From contig JAFZDU010000055.1 of NCBI GenBank assembly GCA_017561025.1, positions 1-47,628 of the forward strand: a stretch of 47,628 nucleotides of DNA, in the 5' to 3' direction. The first letter of the stretch is position 1. Every line of letters starts with the position of its first letter. Made by a program: the position numbers and the translations under genes. Shown here piece after piece: positions 36,371 to 44,407 of the stretch. The notes under the pieces are model-generated. The model saw only the letters and a program-made list of their open reading frames with translations, searched no databases and was not told the DNA's origin. Source of the stretch: Bacteroidales bacterium (GTDB taxonomy: Bacteria; Bacteroidota; Bacteroidia; Bacteroidales; F082).

Positions 36371-38377
36371 ATGAATAAAATCGACAATGAAAACATGAGT
36401 CTGCCGGAAAACGCACAACGCGAACTGGCACCAGGTGAGGTTTATAAACCAATATTATCTTCAGACAAGAAATACAAAGAGATAACAGTCTGGTCTGTGA
36501 CCATCGGCCTCTTGATGACAATCTTATTCTCGGCGGCTGCAGCTTATCTCGGACTGAAAGTGGGACAGGTGTTTGAAGCGGCCATACCTATCGCTATCAT
36601 CGCTATTGGCCTGTCAGGCGTGGCTAAGAAGAATGACGCCTTATCACAAAACGTCATCATACAGTCTATCGGCGGCTGCTCTGGAGGTGTGGTGGCTGGC
36701 GCTATTTTCACACTGCCTGCCTTGTATATATTACAGGGTAAAGGATACGAAATAGAAATCAACTATATGCAGGTGTTCTTAGCCTCATTGTTGGGCGGTA
36801 TCTTAGGAATACTTTTCTTGATCCCTTTCAGAAAATATTTCGTCAAAGAACAACATGGCAAGTTCCCATTCCCTGAAGCTACTGCAACCACTCAGGTTCT
36901 TGTCAGCGGTCAGAAGAAAGGCAAGGATTCTTTATTACTCGTCGTAAGTGGATTGATAGGTGGTCTTTACGATTTCTGCATCTCTACATTCGGACTCTGG
37001 ACAGAGACGCTTTCTACAAAAGTAATGACATGGGGACTCGCTGTCGCTGATAAGGCAAAGCTGATGTTTAAAGTAAATGTCGGCGCAGCTGTTCTTGGTC
37101 TCGGTTATATCATTGGATTGAAATATGCATTCATAATTTGCTGTGGCTCAATGTTGGTTTGGTTTATTATCATTCCTGGCATGAACATAATATGGGGCAA
37201 TGACGTTATTGATTTGATGAATTCAGGCATTACACAGACATTAGGCTCTATGAGTCCAGAGATGATTTTCAAGGAATATGCACGTCATATTGGTATTGGC
37301 GGTATCGCCATGGCTGGTGTTGTAAGTATCATTAGATCATGGGGAGTGATTAAATCATCTGTAGGTTTGGCTGCAAATGAATTTAAAGGAAAGAAGAACA
37401 ATGTTGATAAAGAAGAACGTACACAACGTGACCTTTCAATGAAATTCGTCGTTGTAGGTATTGTTATAGTTTTAGTCATCACTTTCTTATTCTTCTGGTT
37501 TGGCGTCGTTGGTAACGTAAAACACGCATTAGTAGGTATAGCTGTCGTGGCTGTTATCTCATTCTTGTTCACTACTGTGGCAGCAAACGCTATCGCTATA
37601 GTCGGTTCAAATCCTGTTAGCGGCATGACACTTATGACATTGATATTAGCCTCCTTAGTGATGGTAGCTGCTGGATTGAGCGGTGCTATGGGTATGACTG
37701 CAGCACTTATCATAGGCGGCGTTGTATGTACAGCCTTGGCTGTTGCCGGTGCGTTCATCACCGACTTGAAAGTTGGATATTGGATTGGCACCACACCAAG
37801 AAATCAGGAGATTTGGAAGTTCGTCGGCGTTGCTGTGGCTGCTGCTACAGTAGCAGGCGTTATCATGGTTTTGAATAAGGCATACGGCTTTGTCGGCGAT
37901 GGCGCTTTGGTAGCTCCACAGGCAAATGCTATGTCTGCTGTCATAGAACCAATGATGTCAGGTGGAAACGCACCATGGCTGTTATACGGCATCGGTGCTG
38001 TCATAGCATTGATACTCACTTTCGCTAAGATACCAGCTCTTCCATTCGCACTCGGTATGTTTATCCCAATAGACCTTAATATACCTTTATTAATAGGCGG
38101 CGCTATCTCTTGGTACGTAAGCACACGCAGCAAAGACGAGGCTCTCAACCAAGCGCGTAACAACAGAGGAACACTCATAGCTTCAGGATTTATCGCCGGC
38201 GGCGCATTGATGGGTGTTGTCAGCGCGATACTCAAATTCGCTAATGTCAATATGATTGTAAATGTTGGCGGCGTTCCTTTCGCAGAGACACCTTGGGCTT
38301 CATTGGTTGCTTTGTTCATGTATGTCGCTGTCATCGCTTATATGATATGGGATTCTAAAAGAGCAAAAATAGAATAA
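36371..38377 (+). CDS. OPT-family oligopeptide transporter
   Basis: This 668-aa polytopic inner-membrane protein of the OPT superfamily imports oligopeptides, probably with protons. The family blocks are visible: AAAAYLGLKVGQVFEAAIPI near residue 65, SIGGCSGGVVAGAIFTLPAL, FPFPEATATTQVLVSG, and NPVSGMTLMTLI in the C-terminal half. Many alternating hydrophobic segments fit the usual 14-16 helices. It lies between a C-S lyase and peptidase T, which fits a peptide-uptake role. Some OPT members carry metal chelates, so the substrate is inferred. Confidence 0.9.
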   Translation: MNKIDNENMSLPENAQRELAPGEVYKPILSSDKKYKEITVWSVTIGLLMTILFSAAAAYLGLKVGQVFEAAIPIAIIAIGLSGVAKKNDALSQNVIIQSIGGCSGGVVAGAIFTLPALYILQGKGYEIEINYMQVFLASLLGGILGILFLIPFRKYFVKEQHGKFPFPEATATTQVLVSGQKKGKDSLLLVVSGLIGGLYDFCISTFGLWTETLSTKVMTWGLAVADKAKLMFKVNVGAAVLGLGYIIGLKYAFIICCGSMLVWFIIIPGMNIIWGNDVIDLMNSGITQTLGSMSPEMIFKEYARHIGIGGIAMAGVVSIIRSWGVIKSSVGLAANEFKGKKNNVDKEERTQRDLSMKFVVVGIVIVLVITFLFFWFGVVGNVKHALVGIAVVAVISFLFTTVAANAIAIVGSNPVSGMTLMTLILASLVMVAAGLSGAMGMTAALIIGGVVCTALAVAGAFITDLKVGYWIGTTPRNQEIWKFVGVAVAAATVAGVIMVLNKAYGFVGDGALVAPQANAMSAVIEPMMSGGNAPWLLYGIGAVIALILTFAKIPALPFALGMFIPIDLNIPLLIGGAISWYVSTRSKDEALNQARNNRGTLIASGFIAGGALMGVVSAILKFANVNMIVNVGGVPFAETPWASLVALFMYVAVIAYMIWDSKRAKIE

Positions 38378-38459: not shown

Positions 38460-39677
38460 ATGGAAAAATTATTAGATAAATTTTTAAGATATGTCTCTGT
38501 CGATACTATGTCAGACCCTGAATCAGAGACACAGCCAAGTTCAGAAAGACAATTTGATCTTCTCAGAATGCTTCGCGATGAGTTGGAAGCAATGGGAATA
38601 AAGGCAGAATTAGACGAGTTCGGTTATGTGATGGCGACAATTCCATCTAACATCGATAAAGAAGTTCCAGCTATCGGTTTCATCGCTCACGTCGATACAT
38701 CGCCAGACGCTTCTGGAAAAGATGTCAAGCCTCAAATCATCGAAGACTATCAAGGCGGTGACATTATCCTTAATATTGAAAAGGATATAGTCCTTAAAGT
38801 TTCTGACTTCCCTGAGATGCAGAACTATATCGGCAAGACAATGATAACCACAGACGGAACAACATTGTTAGGTGCTGATGACAAAGGCGGCGTTGCTGCT
38901 ATCATGTATGCTGCTCAATATCTTATGGAACATCCAGAGGTGAAACATGGTGAAATTAAGATAGGTTTCACTCCAGATGAAGAAATCGGCAGGGGTGTCG
39001 CTAAATTTGATGTAAAGAAGTTTGGCGCTCAATATGCATATACTATCGACGGCGGCGAGATAGGAGAACTGGAATACGAAAATTTCAACGCCGCCGTCGC
39101 TAAGATTCATATTCAAGGAGCTAACATACATCCAGGCTATGCAAAAGGCAAGATGATTAACTCGATGCAGATAGCTATGGAACTCAATGCAATGCTTCCT
39201 GTTGAACAGCGACCTGAGTTTACCTGCGGTTATGAAGGCTTCTATCATCTTACTGATATCAAAGGAACAGTAGAGGAGACTTCAATGCAATATATAATCC
39301 GCGACCATGACAGAGCTAAGTTTGAAGAGAAGAAAGAATTACTCAAGGCAGTTGTTGAATATCTTAACAAAAAACACAACAACGCAGTTAAGATTGAGAT
39401 GAAAGACCAATATTACAATATGCGTCAGGAAGTGGAACCACATTATTTCATTGTTGAGAAGGCTATCAAGGCTATAGAGATGGCAGGCATCAAGCCAAAG
39501 GTACAGCCAATACGTGGCGGCACCGACGGAGCAAACCTCAGTTTCATGGGATTGCCATGTCCTAATATCTTCGCAGGCGGACATAACTTCCACGGCAAAT
39601 ATGAATACGTTCCATTGGAAAGCATGGAAAAAGCATCAGAAGTCATATTGAACATTATTGATTTATTTACAGAGTAG
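38460..39677 (+). CDS. pepT: Peptidase T (tripeptide aminopeptidase)
   Basis: This 405-aa cytoplasmic M20B zinc peptidase removes the N-terminal residue from tripeptides. Metal and catalytic residues are visible: GFIAHVDTSPDASG (His77, Asp79), LGADDKGG (Asp140), FTPDEEIGRG (Glu174/Glu175) and TIDGGEIGELEYENFNA (Asp197). A C-terminal GGHNFHGKYEYVP supplies the last histidine. Length is standard. It follows an oligopeptide transporter by 82 nt, with a hairpin repeat between them, and would process imported peptides. Confidence 0.96.
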   Translation: MEKLLDKFLRYVSVDTMSDPESETQPSSERQFDLLRMLRDELEAMGIKAELDEFGYVMATIPSNIDKEVPAIGFIAHVDTSPDASGKDVKPQIIEDYQGGDIILNIEKDIVLKVSDFPEMQNYIGKTMITTDGTTLLGADDKGGVAAIMYAAQYLMEHPEVKHGEIKIGFTPDEEIGRGVAKFDVKKFGAQYAYTIDGGEIGELEYENFNAAVAKIHIQGANIHPGYAKGKMINSMQIAMELNAMLPVEQRPEFTCGYEGFYHLTDIKGTVEETSMQYIIRDHDRAKFEEKKELLKAVVEYLNKKHNNAVKIEMKDQYYNMRQEVEPHYFIVEKAIKAIEMAGIKPKVQPIRGGTDGANLSFMGLPCPNIFAGGHNFHGKYEYVPLESMEKASEVILNIIDLFTE

Positions 39678-40994: not shown

Positions 40995-41405
40995 ATGAAA
41001 AAATTAAATGTAATTGTAGTTTTATTTGTGATGTCGTTTCTAGCATCATGCGAAATCCCGACATCAGCGAAGTTTGACCATCATCTTAAAAAGGTGGAGA
41101 ATAACAGCGGAAACTGGACTGAGGAAGAATGGGAGATGTCGAAAGAGAAATATCGTCAGCTGCTTAAGGAATATGAAGAGAATTATGATAATATGACGCC
41201 AGAAGAAAGAGCGGAAATCAATAAGGCGATAGGACGTTATAATGGCATTCTTATGAAAAAAGGAATAGAGCGTGTCGATGAATCTATTGATGATTTTATT
41301 GACAGATTTCCTTCCTTATTTGAAGGATTTATGAGCGCTTTTGAAGAAGAAATGGAAAAATTAGAAGATAAGATTGAAAAACTGGAGGAAAAATATGAAG
41401 ATTAA
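40995..41405 (+). CDS. Small DUF6565-like coiled-coil lipoprotein
   Basis: This 136-aa predicted lipoprotein has a signal ending FLASC with Cys19 lipidated. The mature part is highly charged and helical, with WTEEEWEMSKEKYRQLLKEY and MTPEERAEINKAIGRYNG, and a C-terminal Glu/Lys coiled coil (MEKLEDKIEKLEEKYED). This resembles the DUF6565 lipoproteins of Bacteroidales, whose function is unknown. Its last 11 nt overlap the rhodanese gene, so the two are translationally coupled. Confidence 0.72.
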   Translation: MKKLNVIVVLFVMSFLASCEIPTSAKFDHHLKKVENNSGNWTEEEWEMSKEKYRQLLKEYEENYDNMTPEERAEINKAIGRYNGILMKKGIERVDESIDDFIDRFPSLFEGFMSAFEEEMEKLEDKIEKLEEKYED

Positions 41406-41766
41406 ATATTTGTTGACATGTCTGGCATTGACAATAATGATATCATGCCAAGCACAATCGGAGTTTAAATCCGTTGGTATTGATGAATTCAAGACTGAGA
41501 TTTCAAAATCTGACGTTCAATTAGTTGACGTTCGTACTGCACAAGAATATTCGGAAGGACATATTCCTGGAGCAATGAATATCGATGTCAATGCTCCCGA
41601 TTTTGAAGAGAAGATAAAGGCTTTGGACAAGAAAGAAAATGTCGCCATCTATTGCAGAAGCGGACGCCGCAGCAAAATGGCTGCAAACAAAATGACTGAA
41701 GCAGGATTCAAAGTCATAGAACTCAACACCGGATTCCTTAGCTGGGACGGGGCAGTGGAGAAATAA
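41395..41766 (+). CDS. Rhodanese-like lipoprotein (sulfurtransferase domain)
   Basis: This 123-aa protein has a lipoprotein signal (IMISC, Cys18) and one rhodanese domain. VQLVDVRTAQEYSEGHIPGA is the substrate-fold signature, and the active-site loop is CRSGRR with catalytic Cys87. It would transfer sulfane sulfur outside the cytoplasm, or bind other thiol substrates. The start is the ATG at 41395, preceded by GGAGG (41384-41388) at 6 nt. A longer frame starting 7 codons earlier lacks such a site and spoils the signal peptide. It overlaps the upstream lipoprotein gene by 11 nt. Confidence 0.88.
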   Translation: MKIKYLLTCLALTIMISCQAQSEFKSVGIDEFKTEISKSDVQLVDVRTAQEYSEGHIPGAMNIDVNAPDFEEKIKALDKKENVAIYCRSGRRSKMAANKMTEAGFKVIELNTGFLSWDGAVEK

Positions 41767-41809: not shown

Positions 41810-44407
41810 ATGAAAAAGTTTATTATGGGATTAAGCGTTTTTGGATTGCTATGTAGCTGTAACACAGGCAACCAACAGACAAAAAACGACGATTTTAAAT
41901 ATCTCGTCGATGAATTCGCAGACATCAAAATCATGCGCTACCAAATTCCTGAATGGGAGAACCTTTCTCTTCAACAAAAGGAATACCTTTATTATTTGGG
42001 CGAAGCCGCTAAATGTGGTCGCGACATCCTCGCTGACCAAAACTTCAAGTACAACCTCACAGTCCGAAAGACAAACGAGGCTATCTTGAATTCTTATTCC
42101 GGTAACCGTGAGACTGAAGAGTTCCAAAACTTCCTTACTTACGCAAAACGCGTGTTCTTCAGCAACGGCATCCATCATCATTATGCAGAAGATAAATTCT
42201 TCCCAGAAATCACAGAAGAATACTTCGCAGAACTTGTTAGAAATTCTGATGAAAAACAACTACCTCTCGCTGAGAACGAGACAGTGAAAGAATTCTTGGC
42301 ATTCATCACTCCAGTCATCTTCGACAAAGATTTATATGCTACACGCCGAAGCGGAGAAGCTGATATCATCAAGAATTCTGCTACTAACTTCTACAAAGGC
42401 GACATCTCTAAAGAAGAAGTTGAAAACTTCTATGACGCTCAAAGAAAACCTAATGACGCTACTCCAATTTCTTACGGCTTGAACTCTCAACTAGTAAAGG
42501 AAAACGGTAAGATTTTCGAAAACGTATATAAATCAGGCGGTCTCTATGGCGAAGCTATCGACCAAATTATCTTCTGGCTTGAAAAAGCTAATGCTGTGGC
42601 AGAAAACGACATCCAACGTAATTATACAGATCTCCTTATCAATTATTACAAGACAGGCTGTCTTAAGGCATGGGATGAATACAACATCGCTTGGGTGCAA
42701 GACTCTGTCTCAACTATCGACTTCGTTAACGGCTTCATCGAAGACTACGGCGATCCAATGGGCATGAAAGCAACATGGGAAGCTGTCGTCAACTTCAAAG
42801 ACATGGAAGCTACAAAACGCGCTGAACTCATCAGCCAAAACGCTCAATGGTTTGAAGATAACTCACCTGTAGACGAACGTTTCAAGAAGAAAGAATGTAA
42901 AGGCGTAACAGCAAAAGGCATCATCGTCACAACATTGGCAGGCGACTGTTTCCCAGCGCCTCCAATTGGCATCAACCTTCCTAATGCCGACTGGATTCGT
43001 AAGGACTACGGCTCTAAATCTGTTACAATCACCAACTTGATGGATGCTTACGACAAAGCAGCCCAAGAATCTCCTAAGAGCGTCTTGGCTGAGTTCGCTT
43101 ATTCACAAGAAGAAATAGACCTCTGTAAAAAATATGGCTCTAATGCCGACGTGGTTCACACCGACTTACACGAATGCCTCGGTCATGGTTCTGGACAGCT
43201 TCTTCCAACAACACAACCTAACGCATTGAAAGAGTACAACTCAGCACTCGAAGAATCACGCGCCGACTTGTTCGGTCTTTACTATTGCGCTGATCCAATC
43301 ATGGTTGAACTCGGCATCATGCCTGACATGGAAGCTTATAAAGCTGCATACGCTAACTTCATCCGTAATGGTTTGATGGGACAACTCTCACGTATTGAAT
43401 TAGGTAAAAACGTGACAGAATCTCACATGCAAGACCGTAAGCTCATCTCTGAATGGTGCTACGAAAAAGGTTTGGATGACAATGTAATTGAAAAGAAAAT
43501 AAAAGATGGTAAGACATATTTCGTGGTCAATGATTATGAAAGATTACGCATGTTATTCGGTGAGCTCCTCGCTGAAATACAACGTATCAAATCAGAAGGC
43601 GATTATGAAGCAGGTAAACAACTTGTTGAAAGATATGCTGTAAAAGTGGATCCTGTCTTGCATAAAGAAGTTAAAGAACGTTACGACGCTTTGAACCTCA
43701 GACCTTACGGAGGTTTCATTAACCCTGACATCGTTCCTGTAGAAAAAGGAGGTAAGGTGGTTGATTACGTTATCAACTATCCAAGCGACTTTGTACAACA
43801 GCATCTCGATTATGGCAAGCAATATGCTTTCTTGAAAGAAAACCACGCAGCTCCAACACATTTAGTCGTTGACATGCTTTATGATTTCATCGACGGTTCA
43901 TTGGCTTGCGGCAATGCAGAAGAAGCAGTGAAAGAAGTCATCAAATATATCAACGCTCATCCTGACCAAGAAGTTATTTATATCACCGACTGCCATCCAG
44001 CAGACCACAGTTCTTTCGCTGAATTTGGCGGTATCTGGCCATCACACTGCGTTGAAGGAACACGCGGCGGCGCTATACATGAAGCTTTCTATACAGATGT
44101 TATTAATGTTATAAATCGTCCAGATCCAGAACGCAACATCTTCCGTAAAGGCTGCAAGCAAGACGAAGAACAATATTCAGGTTTTGAAGCTGTTAACAGC
44201 AAAGGCGTGGCTTTGAAAGACTATGCAAACAAAGACGTCGTTATCAGCGGCATCGCTACAGAATACTGCGTTAAGAACACAGTGGAAGAATTCCTTAATG
44301 CCGGACATAATGTTGAATTATTGCTCGATGGTCTAGGTTATGTTGATTATAAAGGACATAATAAGACAATCAAGGAATTGGAGAAAGTTGTTACAGTAGT
44401 CAAGTGA
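41810..44407 (+). CDS. Lipoprotein fusing dipeptidyl peptidase III (M49) to a nicotinamidase domain
   Basis: This 865-aa single reading frame has three parts. A signal peptide ends LLCSC, with Cys17 as the likely lipidated residue. Residues about 20-675 are a complete M49 zinc peptidase: HECLGH at 454-459 is the HExxxGH zinc/catalytic motif and EESRAD (Glu482) gives the third ligand. Residues about 682-865 are a PncA-type nicotinamidase: VVDMLYDF (Asp688), TDCHPADHSSF (metal residues Asp727, His729), WPSHCVEGT, FRKGC (Lys780) and GIATEYCV (Cys820). The Asp-Lys-Cys triad is intact. The peptidase domain ends normally (YAFLKENH) and the second domain begins at once. M49 enzymes release N-terminal dipeptides; nicotinamidase makes nicotinate from nicotinamide. 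Both would act outside the cytoplasm if the lipobox is used. Confidence 0.9.
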   Translation: MKKFIMGLSVFGLLCSCNTGNQQTKNDDFKYLVDEFADIKIMRYQIPEWENLSLQQKEYLYYLGEAAKCGRDILADQNFKYNLTVRKTNEAILNSYSGNRETEEFQNFLTYAKRVFFSNGIHHHYAEDKFFPEITEEYFAELVRNSDEKQLPLAENETVKEFLAFITPVIFDKDLYATRRSGEADIIKNSATNFYKGDISKEEVENFYDAQRKPNDATPISYGLNSQLVKENGKIFENVYKSGGLYGEAIDQIIFWLEKANAVAENDIQRNYTDLLINYYKTGCLKAWDEYNIAWVQDSVSTIDFVNGFIEDYGDPMGMKATWEAVVNFKDMEATKRAELISQNAQWFEDNSPVDERFKKKECKGVTAKGIIVTTLAGDCFPAPPIGINLPNADWIRKDYGSKSVTITNLMDAYDKAAQESPKSVLAEFAYSQEEIDLCKKYGSNADVVHTDLHECLGHGSGQLLPTTQPNALKEYNSALEESRADLFGLYYCADPIMVELGIMPDMEAYKAAYANFIRNGLMGQLSRIELGKNVTESHMQDRKLISEWCYEKGLDDNVIEKKIKDGKTYFVVNDYERLRMLFGELLAEIQRIKSEGDYEAGKQLVERYAVKVDPVLHKEVKERYDALNLRPYGGFINPDIVPVEKGGKVVDYVINYPSDFVQQHLDYGKQYAFLKENHAAPTHLVVDMLYDFIDGSLACGNAEEAVKEVIKYINAHPDQEVIYITDCHPADHSSFAEFGGIWPSHCVEGTRGGAIHEAFYTDVINVINRPDPERNIFRKGCKQDEEQYSGFEAVNSKGVALKDYANKDVVISGIATEYCVKNTVEEFLNAGHNVELLLDGLGYVDYKGHNKTIKELEKVVTVVK

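Follow-up and report, generated by a model that had tools for sequence, protein, structure and literature searches.

The nicotinamidases (PncA) known so far are stand-alone proteins of the cytoplasm, ~200 residues long. Dipeptidyl peptidase III (DPP III), of peptidase family M49, has a solved representative from Bacteroides thetaiotaomicron (PDB 5na7 and 5na6; organism of the chain according to PMC5667867), and Porphyromonas gingivalis has a Bacteroidales M49 enzyme with an added C-terminal domain, found in one genus, which PMC5708649 describes as an AlkD-like ARM-repeat domain, not a nicotinamidase, in a protein thought not to be periplasmic. We analyzed a contig of 47,628 nucleotides (JAFZDU010000055.1, assembly GCA_017561025.1; the whole stretch is called the window) from a Bacteroidales bacterium of family F082, in which one gene encodes a predicted lipoprotein that joins M49 DPP III to PncA. 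The product is best explained, with a probability of roughly 0.72, as an exported, membrane-anchored nicotinamidase carried on a DPP III lipoprotein, which would deamidate nicotinamide outside the inner membrane for salvage of nicotinamide adenine dinucleotide (NAD). The genome is a draft (2.79 Mb, 126 contigs, 84% complete), and its genus, sampled here as 99 species-level genomes, is labeled Candidatus Limimorpha from one record, Candidatus Limimorpha caballi (locus L148; G, C, and L numbers are our handles for genomes, contigs, and loci).

The gene is an uninterrupted open reading frame of 865 residues (41810..44407, + strand, as are all features below). A predicted signal peptide (41810..41860) ends in the lipobox LCSC, with Cys17 as the putative lipid-carrying residue, and is followed by the M49 part (residues 28-679, 41891..43846) and the PncA domain (residues 680-865, 43847..44404). 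Pfam matched both enzymes, PF03571 (Peptidase_M49) at 162.9 bits against a cut-off of 21, and PF00857 (Isochorismatase) at 47 bits against a cut-off of 27 over residues 684-862. The closest solved chain to the first domain is 5na7, a putative dipeptidyl-peptidase III (805 bits over residues 13-676), which shares HECLGH and Glu482 but ends where the PncA of the fusion begins. For the second domain it is 1ilw, a pyrazinamidase/nicotinamidase that, like the PncA of 3pl1, has the same catalytic triad, metal ligands, and, judged by sequence, fold. HECLGH (residues 454-459, 43169..43186) corresponds to the HEXXGH motif of the M49 family, and downstream lies Glu482 (43253..43255), presumably the third zinc ligand. 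His454, Glu455, His459, and Glu482 are invariant in a 20-row alignment, as is Cys17, and with its residues kept the M49 part is probably an active peptidase. In the PncA domain, Asp688 (43871..43873), Lys780 (44147..44149), and Cys820 (44267..44269) align with what we take to be the catalytic triad of 1ilw, Cys820 being the nucleophile, while Asp727 and His729 (D-x-H, 43988..43996) and His746 (44045..44047) align with its presumed metal ligands; these residues are invariant across the fused type and the separate lipoprotein type described below. A first-pass annotation of this stretch had proposed the fusion, and that observation holds: one open frame, both domains complete, and every residue position that it named correct, all ten residues from His454 to Cys820 given above being confirmed in the translation.

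Unfused M49 relatives of the same genus stop at ...EYSFLKAKH, and the fusions read on as ...YSFVKENHAAPTHLVVDML. The relatives end at this same point, so PncA was added directly at the peptidase's own C-terminus, leaving hardly any linker. The sole Met between the junction and the core of the PncA domain is residue 689, beyond Asp688, so an internal start could not yield an active separate PncA.

The junction recurs in 37 of the 99 genus genomes, some copies being cut by contig ends; G121 is counted by the fusion search, though without a PF00857 match. That the gene results from mis-assembly or mis-joined frames, for which nothing was found in favor, has a vanishingly small probability and was rejected: the window does come from a draft of 126 contigs, but the junction is identical in these 37 genomes and in 33 named records among the best 80 of 243 relatives from a wider scan. 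That scan covered 84,980 species genomes with two short patterns, and distant cases may be missed. The 33 fusions, one cut by a contig end, belong to metagenome-assembled genomes; where a source is stated, it is water buffalo, yak, cattle, goat, roe deer, red deer, and horse gut. An order-wide search of 393 genomes outside the genus with the fused PncA domain matched 85, none listed in a frame of more than 295 residues. All 32 fused M49s tested form one clade (support 100/99) and therefore reflect one fusion event. A separate PncA, in a frame of ~206-320 residues or as two contig-cut pieces, was found in 58 of the 99 genus genomes, and none held both the fusion and the separate lipoprotein PncA. 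The search for a separate pncA suggested by the first-pass annotation gave no second nicotinamidase-type PncA in the window's genome (84% complete) or in the other fusion genomes. Additional PF00857 proteins of another type (~158-183 residues) occur in six genomes (G165, G116, G127, G133, G140, and G164; L012-L017), among them the fusion genome G116, where the protein scores 21.8 bits to PRK11609, a nicotinamidase model considered below.

A lipobox and hydrophobic stretch, called by our own pattern of charged start, hydrophobic core, and lipobox Cys, are present in 29 of 29 full-length fusions, compared with 0 of 47 PncB-PncA or pncB-linked PncA frames and 0 of 38 other PncA loci of the order, several of which are one gene counted twice. 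In these 38 loci PncA starts at the domain itself, without a signal. The predicted lipoprotein signal noted in the first pass thus stands, while the accompanying statement that nicotinamidases are separate cytoplasmic enzymes fails in this genus, where the separate PncAs also appear to be lipoproteins: the lipobox was found in 39 of 40, and in the fortieth, truncated by a contig end, ...ALAFASC is still visible. Unfused M49s of the genus carry a signal in 24 of 29 cases. The 5 without one, and all 6 from other genera, start where the mature part of the lipoproteins starts, and the signal is therefore an addition within the genus rather than a misread start. That every M49 of the genus is a lipoprotein was rejected when an initial 20 of 20 became 24 of 29 on reading nine more, four with and five without a signal. 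These five signal-less unfused M49s (L278-L282, from G104, G083, G141, G122, and G138) branch outside the lipoprotein M49s.

It is unlikely that the N-terminus does not export and that the protein is cytosolic, or inserted in the inner membrane facing the cytosol, even though the two DPP III papers describe the B. thetaiotaomicron enzyme as cytosolic (PMC5667867) and the P. gingivalis enzyme as probably not periplasmic (PMC5708649). The signal is present in every full-length fusion, signal-less relatives begin at the mature sequence, a second, unrelated PncA of the genus has a similar signal, and 5na7 itself matches from its residue 7, ILASCGG..., which we read as lipobox-like. In surface-exposed Bacteroidota lipoproteins an acidic export motif directly follows the lipid-bearing Cys. 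The stretch after Cys17, CNTGNQQTKNDDF, and those of its relatives have, judged by eye, acidic residues only further along; because this motif seems to be absent there, the periplasmic side may be likelier than the surface for the fusion.

The nearest relatives of the fused PncA domain are PncB-PncA fusion proteins of other Bacteroidales (50-60% identical). Among 47 loci of such relatives, PncA lies on the C-terminus of PncB in 32 (one contig-cut) and is encoded directly downstream of pncB in 15, and in the PncA tree the fused domain is nested in this pncB-linked clade. The bifunctional PncB-PncA proteins have ~680 residues (L155-L201, e.g., L161:2504-4528, L188, and L190). Of the 37 fusion genomes, 34 have a matching pncB type (~495 residues, no PncA attached) and none has the other type (~400 residues); of the 58 lipoprotein genomes, 52 have that other type and none has the matching one. 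Because the pncA and pncB types change together, the salvage pair was exchanged as a unit, and since the fusion genomes share one ancestor this was one replacement, not 37. The donor could have been a pncB-pncA pair or a PncB-PncA fusion: the nearest rows of the PncA tree are one of each (L160 and L198), and the position of the Limimorpha pncB is not fixed by the PncB tree. The window's own genome has two pncB copies, on contigs C95 and C72 (L283 and L284), and the other listed fusion genomes have one of this type. A second, distant PncB-like protein (L206, G098:C56), 42% identical to the query, is joined to the PncB tree by a very long branch.

The sole NCBIfam match of the fusion is PRK11609 (nicotinamidase/pyrazinamidase), at 63 bits over residues 684-849. 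The equivalog cut-off of this model is passed by just 1 of 149 family genomes and 1 of 14 controls, which marks it as strict and narrow, and by descent and residues we class the second domain as nicotinamidase-like, outside PRK11609 itself. Since the isochorismatase fold has many substrates and this best score lies under the cut-off, an exported domain might act on another amide, whether a nicotinamide analogue or another substrate of the fold. We consider this quite improbable, because the closest solved chains are nicotinamidases, pncB is the fusion partner or neighbor of the nearest relatives, and the fused domain replaces another nicotinamidase-type enzyme in genomes lacking NadA. The link to NAD salvage drawn in the first pass is strong, resting on the pncB linkage of the relatives (47 of 47 loci), the matching pncB, and the NadA results that follow.

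NadA was found in 0 of 99 genus genomes, compared with 12 of 14 controls, and no remnants were found either (NadB and NadC were not searched for). It occurs in 64 of 149 genomes of the family sample, all 64 among the 74 genomes of other genera; in those 74, PRK11609 gives a strong hit in one, a weak or partial hit (<40 bits) in 36, and no hit in 37. With the search limited to NadA, the genus seems to have traded de novo NAD synthesis for salvage. Lacking NadA, it would depend on salvage as one of a small number of ways to obtain NAD; a PnuC-type transporter may offer another, a PnuC-family protein being present in 90 of the 99 genomes. Some PnuC-family proteins may carry other vitamins.

Directly downstream of the lipoprotein pncA lies a gene for a membrane protein of PF13303 (PTS_EIIC_2), in 40 of 40 loci read (e.g., L095:3704-4720) and, by coordinates, in the other 18 of 18, with gaps of 51-172 bases between matched stretches. 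The protein is present in 95 of 99 genus genomes, including 35 of 37 fusion genomes, and is a candidate nicotinate importer. No paper joining PF13303 with nicotin- was found in the open-access literature, and no remnant of lipoprotein pncA was seen beside the PF13303 gene in seven fusion-genome loci (four listed gene by gene). On the preferred explanation, the signal would direct the fusion protein to the Sec pathway, and a lipidated Cys17 would tether it either to the inner membrane, on its outward side, or to the outer membrane. The C-terminal domain, with its Asp688-Lys780-Cys820 triad and metal, would convert nicotinamide to nicotinic acid and ammonia; nicotinic acid may then be taken in, possibly through the PF13303 protein, and the cytosolic nicotinate phosphoribosyltransferase PncB would turn it into the mononucleotide for NAD. 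The M49 part would serve mainly as a carrier, giving the PncA domain a signal and an anchor.

The fused and separate-lipoprotein PncAs are only 25-28% identical, and each forms one clade (100/99) in a different part of a 71-row PncA tree. On these grounds we rejected a transfer of the native lipoprotein PncA onto M49 as the origin of the fused domain. Given this difference in descent, nicotinamidase export seems to have evolved on two occasions, once by an added signal and once on a peptidase lipoprotein. One lipoprotein PncA from elsewhere, that of G175 (L118/L224, a different family of the same order), groups within Limimorpha in the tree; it has the same PF13303 neighbor, 78% identical, which suggests joint transfer of both genes. 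Somewhat short of an even chance, in our estimate, is the broader proposal that Limimorpha has on two occasions relocated the initial step of NAD salvage beyond the cytoplasm, so that deamidation at the envelope would give bacteria lacking NadA a niacin-scavenging system of a distinct kind, and the gut a source of nicotinic acid. We hold its details just as tentatively: one lineage may have given PncA its own signal and PF13303 as a new kind of nicotinate importer, and the other may have fixed the PncA half of a pncB-linked pair to a peptidase lipoprotein. If true, the gain of export by two unrelated nicotinamidases in a NadA-less genus suggests selection for producing nicotinic acid outside.

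The first-pass annotation had also proposed that dipeptide release and deamidation are coupled. As a single function, through channeling or shared regulation, this is very unlikely. In its favor, 37 species retain the fusion with two intact active sites, P. gingivalis DPP III activity is strongly raised by its extra C-terminal domain (PMC5708649), and just upstream the window encodes an OPT-type transporter for oligopeptides and a peptidase of family M20. However, in the sister species the genes for the two enzymes lie apart and signal-less unfused M49s exist, so neither enzyme needs the other, and other PncAs of this branch are partnered with PncB, not a peptidase. The upstream genes, the OPT transporter at 36371-38377 and the M20-family peptidase at 38460-39677, fit the M49 part's own use of peptides. 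Directly upstream of the fusion, at 40995-41766, are two small genes for a DUF6565 protein (MKKLNVIVVLFVMSFLASCEIP...) and a rhodanese (MKIKYLLTCLALTIMISCQAQ...), both lipoprotein-like by sequence. By our reading, fused loci mostly share downstream genes for an outer membrane protein and Tex (at least 24 of 29), and unfused M49 loci do not.

Several observations weigh against an exported nicotinamidase serving NAD salvage. The PRK11609 score is far under the equivalog cut-off of 174, and the lipobox calls come from our pattern, not a trained predictor. Neither PncA type was found in 4 of 99 genus genomes, the matching pncB is missing from 3 of 37 fusion genomes, and their own pncB is missing from 6 of 58 lipoprotein genomes, two of which are 98% and 93% complete (G096 and G123). 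The 37 fusion genomes share one event, so their agreement does not amount to 37 independent facts. PnuC homologues are common, and nicotinamide need not be the main source of NAD. The PF13303 gene of fusion genomes lies away from both the fusion and pncB, and its role is drawn from the sister lineage. The explanation also gives no reason for a cell to deamidate in a place from which nicotinic acid may escape. Alternatively, the enzyme might mainly serve neighbors, the host, or signaling through nicotinic acid released into the gut, rather than the NAD of the cell itself: the product would form outside the inner membrane, and gut microbial PncA supplies the host with nicotinic acid (PMC7762504). 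This is nonetheless highly improbable, since the genus keeps pncB and lacks NadA and would itself need nicotinic acid, leakage perhaps being a side effect.

An exported nicotinamidase for salvage would bear on the source of gut nicotinic acid for neighbors and host (PMC7762504), and would give a place, a partner, and a candidate importer to NAD scavenging in uncultured rumen and hindgut bacteria. These gut bacteria of grazing animals and horses seem unable to make the vitamin part of NAD, and an envelope nicotinamidase suggests that they gather the vitamin there, a site that would differ from the cytoplasm to which nicotinamidase is commonly assigned.

No paper on an M49-PncA fusion or an exported nicotinamidase was found in the open-access literature, where absence is weak evidence. 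An M49 enzyme with an added C-terminal domain is already known from P. gingivalis. The PncB-PncA fusions (e.g., of Candidatus Cacconaster, L188 and L190) differ from the Limimorpha protein in lacking a signal (0 of 47 loci) and in having nicotinate phosphoribosyltransferase as partner; we know of no paper on them. The lipoprotein PncA with PF13303 of sister Limimorpha would likewise be an exported nicotinamidase, but differs in PncA lineage, in pncB type, and in being unfused. In Haemophilus, NAD salvage in the envelope relies on NadN, lipoprotein e(P4), and PnuC, with nucleotides dephosphorylated to nicotinamide riboside. That system involves no nicotinamidase, but, like the one proposed here, it processes NAD precursors outside the inner membrane before their uptake.

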